49,885 nucleotides of DNA. It comes from Desulfobacterales bacterium (GTDB lineage Bacteria > Desulfobacterota > Desulfobacteria > Desulfobacterales > Desulfosarcinaceae). The notes beneath the pieces were generated by a model that worked only from the letters and a program-made list of their open reading frames with translations, was not told the DNA's origin and made no database searches. The position numbers and the translations under genes are program-made. Positions 708-1,469 of the stretch are shown piece after piece; positions within the stretch are counted from its first letter, which is position 1; each line of letters opens with the position of its first letter. The DNA lies in contig JACRDD010000031.1 in the NCBI GenBank assembly GCA_016218685.1, positions 1-49,885 on the forward strand, given 5' to 3'.

Positions 708-1469
708 ATGAACTTGCAGAAAAGACTGTTGTTCGGGTTCTGGCGCTTCATCCTGAAGGCCCCTCCGTCTCTCTTGGAGAAACGGATGCAGGGCGCGAAG
801 CGCAAGTTCGAAAAGGAGATGGCGTTTATGAGCGCCGGGCATCGCCGGATTCATCATCTGATTGTGCGGGAGCTGCCCGGGTATGGCAAACCGATGACGG
901 CCGACTTCATTGCCGGGCGGGCCGGGATGGCGGCTGCCCAGGTGCGATCGATCCTGAAAGATCTGGACGAACATATGACCTTCATCTGCCGCAACCAACA
1001 GGGTGAGGTGGTGTGGGCCTATCCGGTGACGGTCGAAAAAACGCCGCATCGGGTCACCCTCGGCAGCGGTGAACAGGTGTATGCCGCTTGAGCGGCCGAC
1101 GCATTCGCCACGCCCTTCGTGCAAGGGCGCCTGAGAAACGCGTATATCGCTGCCACCGTGCACACCTGCTGTGCCCATTGCGGGCAGCCCATGGTGCTGC
1201 GCATCGACAGCGACCTCGCGGTCGCAACGGATGCCGAAGGATGCCGGCCCCTGTGTTTCGTGCCGGAGGTGGACCTGTTCGGGCTGGAAGATGAGTGCAT
1301 CGTCGACGCCTTCTGAAAGGAGAGCGTCTTCTTCTGGTCAGAAGAACATGCGGCGGATCACCGGAAACGCGGCCACCGAACGCGAGGGGCCTACTTTAAT
1401 CCTCAGCAGATGGCCCTGGTCACGCGGACGATCCAGGCGGAGATATTCCAGTTCGGCAAAGATGAATGA
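708..1469 (+). CDS. MerB-like organomercurial lyase, predicted double-selenocysteine protein (253 aa)
   Basis: MerB cleaves carbon-mercury bonds using two cysteines and an aspartate. The frame starts at ATG 708 and runs to TGA 1467-1469 if TGA at 1089-1091 (codon 128) and 1314-1316 (codon 203) are read as selenocysteine (U). The first context is VYAAUAAD, aligning with LYAWCALD of E. coli MerB, so U replaces C96 and D131 keeps D99. The second is AFUKESVFFWS, aligning with SFCCHVHFFAS, so U replaces C159. An N-terminal helical/winged-helix region (about residues 40-95) and the CCAHCGQP segment also fit MerB. Each UGA is followed by a SECIS-like hairpin. The gene stands alone, with no merA, merT or merP nearby. 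GGAGG is only one base from the ATG, so the start is less certain; ATG 786 is an alternative. A standard gene caller would break it into fragments. Decay to a pseudogene is the alternative reading. Confidence 0.8.
1092..1130 (+). promoter_or_regulatory. putative bacterial SECIS element for UGA at codon 128
   Basis: After TGA 1089-1091 a perfect 7-bp stem CGCCCTT (1111-1117) / AAGGGCG (1123-1129) encloses the loop CGTGC (1118-1122). The loop begins 26 bases after the UGA, within the usual bacterial SECIS distance, and carries a G at its second position as SelB-bound loops usually do. It lies inside the coding sequence, as bacterial SECIS elements must. The pairing was read by eye, not computed. 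Confidence 0.6.
1317..1346 (+). promoter_or_regulatory. putative bacterial SECIS element for UGA at codon 203, GGUC loop
   Basis: After TGA 1314-1316 a perfect 7-bp stem TTCTTCT (1329-1335) / AGAAGAA (1340-1346) closes the tetraloop GGTC (1336-1339). The loop starts 19 bases after the UGA. E. coli fdhF shows the GGUC loop at nearly the same distance. This is the better of the two elements and strongly supports selenocysteine insertion. Confidence 0.7.

Follow-up and report, generated by a model that had tools for sequence, protein, structure and literature searches.

The stretch analysed here, hereafter the window, comprises 49,885 nucleotides of a Desulfobacterales bacterium (GCA_016218685.1, contig JACRDD010000031.1, positions 1 to 49,885 of the forward strand) and carries near its beginning a gene for a protein related to the organomercurial lyase MerB. 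The frame contains two internal TGA codons, which fall on two catalytic cysteine positions of MerB, and an earlier note on this DNA had proposed that both are read as selenocysteine (Sec). The gene product is indeed predicted to be made with two Sec residues, an assignment supported by conservation of the TGA pair, by hairpins resembling bacterial Sec insertion sequences (bSECIS), by the presence of selA, selB and selD and by the homology to MerB. The gene and its elements are:

702–706, + strand: Shine-Dalgarno-like GGAGG, 7 nt upstream of TTG 714; seen in the sequence, putative role
708–1469, + strand: MerB-like gene, frame interrupted by two TGA codons; ATG at 708, terminal TGA at 1467–1469; PF03243, 55.2 bits (cut-off 27)
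1089–1091, + strand: TGA 1, residue 128, MerB C96 column; predicted selenocysteine (conservation and MerB alignment)
1098–1100, + strand: Asp131, MerB D99 column by alignment; invariant in 47 rows
1111–1129, + strand: bSECIS-type hairpin 1; stem of 7 bp in this gene, of which the inner 5 are conserved; loop CGTGC at 1118–1122, 26 nt after TGA 1
1170–1172, + strand: Cys155, MerB C117 column by alignment
1314–1316, + strand: TGA 2, residue 203, MerB C159 column; predicted selenocysteine (conservation and MerB alignment)
1324–1351, + strand: bSECIS-type hairpin 2; inner stem 1329–1346, loop GGTC at 1336–1339, 19 nt after TGA 2; outer pairs poorly conserved

Between 708 and 1469 the frame contains TGA only at the two internal positions and at its end, in agreement with the earlier note, and elsewhere in the window TGA is an ordinary stop that ends 13 of the 29 open reading frames (ORFs) judged real. 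The start calls for a small correction: TTG 714 is more likely than ATG 708 to begin translation because of the GGAGG upstream of it and the alignment with the starts chosen for relatives, some of which were script-selected.

The translated protein has a MerB domain and a predicted MerB fold. Counting against PDB 1s6l placed both TGAs on C96 and C159, where they had been put from the letters alone, and the MerB columns C96, D99, C117 and C159 read U, D, C and U. MerB (PF03243; PDB 1s6l, 3f0o and 5c17) therefore shares predicted fold and four catalytic columns with the window protein, but has Cys at both mercury ligands (96 and 159) where the window family has UGA. The aspartate that the earlier note saw kept near the first TGA aligns as Asp131 with D99, which we take to be the proton relay of MerB. 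Identity to solved MerB is only 18–20%, and the window protein stays below the cut-off of every NCBIfam model (June 2026). A genome-wide PF03243 search overlooked the gene in the window, whose translation nevertheless reaches 55 bits. VIA-align rows ranked below MerB were mostly winged-helix proteins over about residues 40–107 and are uninformative on function. As a separate observation, a gene annotated as merA on the Simkania negevensis plasmid NC_015710.1 overlies a MerB-like stretch (57852–58469, hit H2).

The TGA pair is kept far beyond the window. Among 97 relatives, the window's own genome included, we obtained five matches, of which four were strong (G000, G043, G048 and G037) with exactly two TGA each, and the fifth, a short match in G006, proved on inspection to be SaoL, discussed below. 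A search of 389 genomes of the order gave 53 matches at E ≤ 0.001 and 36 at E ≤ 1e-60; 35 of these 36 had exactly two TGA and no further stop, the exception (G140) carrying the pair plus extra stops and damage near its 3' end. Across 395 genomes of the phylum there were 32 matches, 15 of them at E ≤ 1e-60 (14 new) and each with two TGA, the weaker matches in both searches including other MerB-like genes and short pieces. This amounts to 50 distinct genomes at E ≤ 1e-60 (36 + 14); in 49 of them the gene has precisely two TGA and is otherwise free of internal stops. The pair occupies identical columns in all 42 loci checked, 74–75 codons apart (88 in L055), six further strong order-level matches being represented by their TGA count alone; two loci overlooked by the column script (L047 and L058) carry the same pair when read separately. 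In a wider scan of one genome per species (84,980 species), patterns that avoid both TGA columns retrieved 134 relatives; the analysis covered the best 80, a set that overlaps with that of the genome searches (L097, L117 and L118 are contigs of G043, G048 and G364). TGA stands at both columns in 79 of these 80 loci, L145 being frame-broken. By record title, the best 80 span about ten phyla (delta-/Desulfobacterota, Chloroflexota, Acidobacteriota, Acidimicrobiia, Nitrospirota, Spirochaetes, Bacteroidota, Binatia, Rokuibacteriota and Abyssobacteria), the sources being metagenome bins; 24 loci are counted as Chloroflexota, two of them Aquidulcis, which presumably belongs to that phylum. Both TGA columns are among only 27 invariant columns of a 47-row alignment. 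The argument of the earlier note that two random stops would hardly strike both catalytic codons is thereby borne out, the pair being kept across 49 of 50 genomes and 79 of 80 loci so that chance is excluded, and scattered stops or frameshifts in close relatives are confined to L145 and G140.

A profile search of protein databases returned 112 family proteins, which at the two columns show Trp/Trp (50), gap/gap (52), Trp then gap (3), Arg then gap (1), Gly/Leu (1) or other residues (2). The remaining three (P0030, P0035 and P0040) have Cys at the first column and end just before the second; none of the 112 has Cys at both columns, and none was seen with Cys at the second. From these three copies, the first Sec is apparently replaceable by Cys, and the rarity of Cys forms (3 of the 60 database proteins that extend to the first column) suggests that Sec is needed in the family. 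The Trp/Trp copies probably reflect a gene caller switching to the UGA=Trp code on short contigs. Such copies in public protein sets (P0002–P0113) also offer a possible route to mining other multi-Sec proteins.

For bSECIS elements, the available text of PMC13188914 gives a loop of 3–9 nt, an upper stem of 4–16 bp, a spacing of 16–37 nt and a required G within the first two loop positions. Both window hairpins fit the limits, with stems of 7 bp and spacings of 26 and 19 nt. The codons were compared in 80 genes (the window's and those of 79 loci), the other codons of the same genes serving as control. With z-scores uncorrected for kinship, codons 136–140, mostly CCC TTC GTG CAA GGG (z −16 to −41), and codons 208–213, mostly TTC TTC TGG TCA GAA GAA (z −15 to −34), were frozen; most other conserved codons lay at about −5 to +2, and codons 131, 134, 143, 157, 227 and 243 were also low (−5 to −7). 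The loops read CGTGC in 80 and GGTC in 78 of the 80 genes, and the inner pairs are intact in 79–80, the outermost falling to 58 (hairpin 1) and 36 (hairpin 2). A few paired changes preserve closure of hairpin 2; a second clade with two TGA, described below, has the same GGTC loop with a closing C-G pair replacing T-A. Folding energy relative to synonymous shuffles backs hairpin 1 (mean z −2.15 versus −0.21 at 320 control codons). Within the window gene the folding-energy rank is weak, 26% (hairpin 1) and 61% (hairpin 2) of codons being equally low, and Rfam returned only two chance-level matches, none on the strand of the hairpins. Away from both TGAs, codons 167–168 (1206–1211) encode Asp-Ser as GAC AGC in most relatives, GAC being synonymously frozen (z −17), and may mark a further RNA element.

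The earlier note had suggested a search for the Sec machinery, which succeeded in part: selA, selB and a selD that itself bears a TGA are present in the window's genome, but selC stayed below cut-off in this incomplete assembly. The tRNA for Sec scored above cut-off in all four other genomes tested, namely the genus-mate G006, G037, G043 and G048. Of 47 carriers, 38, among them the window's genome, have a selB match at E ≤ 1e-80, as do 21 of 22 good assemblies; selB also occurs in G043, G048 and G037, the three carriers outside that set, and exceeds the cut-off in 39 of the 42 genomes behind species-scan loci not titled delta- or Desulfo-.

Two further features flank the gene:

1–438, − strand: divergent AraC-type gene, cut by the contig end to its N-terminal arabinose-binding domain; PF12625, 54.4 bits; possible regulator
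1491–1532, + strand: strong inverted repeat 3' of the gene (−28.4 kcal/mol for 1488–1540); putative terminator shared with the convergent gene

The inverted repeat, which a terminator pattern scan did not list, separates the MerB-like gene from a convergent gene whose product we take, from its sequence, to be multihaem nitrite-reductase-like. Around the 80 loci, many of them near contig ends, up to five ORFs per side were clustered, and clusters of three or more loci were labelled by eye. The only recurrent immediate neighbours are same-strand upstream regulators, either MarR-like (8 loci) or MerR-like (6 loci), with the domains confirmed on one example each; other clusters of 3–6 loci are common families at scattered positions, an ABC-type ATPase (6 loci) being one example. 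No gene of the selenocysteine-assisted organometal (SAO) system was recognised by eye among these recurrent neighbours; the earlier note had recognised no SAO transporter or thioredoxin-like partner in the window itself.

SaoL is described in the available text of PMC13188914 as a MerB-like selenoprotein with a single Sec (CU motif), encoded in an operon of six selenoprotein genes, and the accessible parts of that review and of PMC9312934 list single SaoL/MerB-like selenoproteins. SaoL (NF040728) and the window family share the character of a MerB-like selenoprotein with TGA at the C159 column, but SaoL is recorded with a single Sec, and its three rows in the tree described below carry Cys at the C96 column, whereas the window family has two TGA; SaoL sits in the SAO operon, whereas the window family is mostly solitary and falls into another tree group. 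The UxxU metal-binding protein (putative mercuric reductase, NF041115) is, according to the available text of PMC13188914, a prokaryotic selenoprotein with two Sec and a link to mercury. As predicted, the window protein would resemble it in both respects; the UxxU protein, however, belongs to a different family and has both Sec in one short motif, while those of the window protein are 75 residues apart and predicted to meet in the active site. In a 47-row tree with several long branches, whose deeper order did not resolve, the window family (27 rows) forms one group with support 99/100 and the three SaoL-like rows form a separate group (100/97). Homologues with Cys or TGA at the two columns, which the earlier note had proposed looking for, were found: TGA stands at both columns in the window family, in the second clade and in the lone L160, and at the C159 column only in the SaoL-like rows, which have Cys at C96, and in two other lineages, while Cys MerB rows lack TGA.

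The second clade (L155–L159, L162, L165, L063 and L064, from G079, G042, G094, G007, G001, G009, G006, G630 and G524) comprises proteins of about 235 residues with TGA at the C96 and C159 columns and Glu at the D99 column (Asp in L162); it occurs in the window's own genus, and L158 scores 74.8 bits against PF03243. On a common origin of the two dual-TGA clades the tree gave no answer (support 6/0). L160 (G084) adds a third, very divergent MerB-like protein, in which each of the two columns holds TGA (UVWD ... YTUATILAF). L065 and L067 are MerB-like genes that have Cys at C96 and TGA only at C159; L067 reaches 54.8 bits where the SaoL model requires 140, and so seems to represent a lineage with one Sec that is distinct from SaoL. 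The true SaoL gene of the genus-mate lies about 3 kb from a TGA-bearing selD (G006:C6 30781–35121; L154 and L170).

In order to account for these observations, we propose, as the probable reading of the sequence evidence, that this MerB-family protein with two Sec acts as a stand-alone organomercurial lyase splitting Hg–C bonds. Selenolate binds mercury more tightly than thiolate. SelB and Sec-tRNA would decode both UGAs, and Sec-96 and Sec-159 (MerB numbering), deprotonated at cell pH, would capture R-Hg(+) as a bis-selenolate, the stronger selenolate donor weakening the Hg–C bond. Asp-99 would then protonate the leaving carbon, with release of R-H, and Hg(II) would pass by ligand exchange to sulfide, selenide or low-molecular thiols, which are abundant in sulfidic anaerobes; this route might account for the lack of any recognised merA or mer transporter next to the gene. 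The upstream MarR- or MerR-like regulators of some relatives and the divergent AraC-type gene in the window suggest that expression is inducible. The wider proposal, of a widespread and undescribed class of di-selenol organomercury lyases, encoded by a solitary gene with its own regulator in some hosts and providing mer-operon-free methylmercury demethylation in anaerobes (sulfate reducers, Anaerolineae, Acidobacteriota and others), we consider evenly balanced between right and wrong.

Several other explanations were weighed. Decay of a former merB through two stop mutations, or errors in sequencing, would fit the frame damage in L145 and G140 but is refuted by the conservation of the TGA pair, in 79 of 80 loci and among the invariant columns, and is further at odds with the codon freezing around both TGAs; we give it practically no credence. 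Equally negligible is a host that reads UGA as tryptophan or glycine: 50 of the 112 database copies do carry Trp at both columns, but TGA stops in the same window refute a reassigned code. Also counting against it are the restriction to two TGA per gene in 49 of 50 genomes, which fall on the Cys columns wherever their position was read, the presence of selA, selB and selD and the three copies with Cys at column 1. That the protein is a divergent SaoL, and thus a member of the SAO system, is very improbable. The two are both MerB-like, and the window protein weakly matches the SaoL model, yet its 45.4 bits are far under the cut-off of 140, the genus-mate G006 has a separate true SaoL (165.2 bits), the tree groups are distinct, SaoL is recorded with one Sec and has Cys at C96 in its three rows, and no SAO gene was recognised among the recurrent neighbours. 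SaoL membership was rejected on the score, the separate SaoL and the tree, and of the alternatives left by the earlier note, a solitary relative or a new branch fits the family.

The main rival to an organomercurial lyase is a genuine dual-Sec protein of the MerB fold with another task: it might bind metal through selenium, as a sponge or chaperone, or cleave other organometals, for example those of tin, lead, arsenic or tellurium. We regard this as unlikely, though well ahead of the preceding alternatives. It draws on the low identity to solved MerB, on scores under the MerB equivalog cut-offs, on the mostly solitary gene with no mer gene recognised among its recurrent neighbours and on the proposal, in the available text of PMC13188914, that Sec residues are possible metal ligands in SaoB/SaoC; all four MerB catalytic columns are kept, however, and the retention of D99 counts against a mere chelator, which would not need Asp there. 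The following points weigh against a dual-Sec organomercurial lyase and its support. In contrast to MerB, the window protein misses the NCBIfam equivalog and exception cut-offs by far (57.4 versus 193 bits and 49.5 versus 200 bits), and no mer gene was recognised by eye among the recurrent neighbours of the 80 loci. A bis-selenolate mercury site could also be a dead end and not a catalyst. As to recoding, selC above cut-off was not found in the 64.6%-complete window assembly (best tRNA match 42.7 bits, cut-off 47), and a strong selB match is missing in 9 of 47 carriers, among them the 97%-complete G323. The codon-freezing scores ignore kinship among the genes, and codons 127 (z −14) and 167–168 (z −17 and −20) are likewise frozen with no TGA hairpin there. 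Synonymous shuffling gave no signal for hairpin 2 (z −0.20 versus −0.21 in the control, p 0.38), and the window's own hairpins 1 and 2 (z −0.80 and +0.27) are not significant. The mercury-methylation gene hgcA exceeds its cut-off in 24 of 36 carriers versus 138 of 353 other genomes (p 0.002, crude test), but stratified by family the association is not significant (odds ratio 1.8, p 0.29), and this co-occurrence is suggestive only.

A MerB-like selenoprotein is thus already known in SaoL, with one Sec, and the predicted dual-Sec form is a variant of which we found no description in the literature searched; an earlier one in Haft & Gwadz 2023 or Haft & Tolstoy 2025 is possible. Besides the two reviews, the literature searched gave only a preprint that names Sao genes in a legend. 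The available text of Deep-Sep (PMC12013277) has no MerB, and that of PMC2398784 and PMC5029168 does not mention MerB. Surveys of merB, in their accessible parts, choose MerB model sequences on C96/C159 (PMC9948709) or check cysteine and aspartate signatures (PMC12997803), and the dual-TGA family would probably be truncated or discarded in them. On the wider proposal, the class would have escaped notice through gene callers, which end the frame at UGA or enter Trp there, and through merB surveys, which require Cys96/Cys159.

Known genes account for only part of the breakdown of methylmercury in anoxic sediment. If the proposed activity is true, the enzyme would likely split methylmercury-type bonds in oxygen-free environments, and if the family demethylates, a widespread demethylation gene has been overlooked where methylmercury forms. 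Because of the tighter binding of mercury by selenolate than by thiolate, an enzyme that uses two selenolates and still turns over would, if true, put Sec to the test in metal chemistry as distinct from redox.
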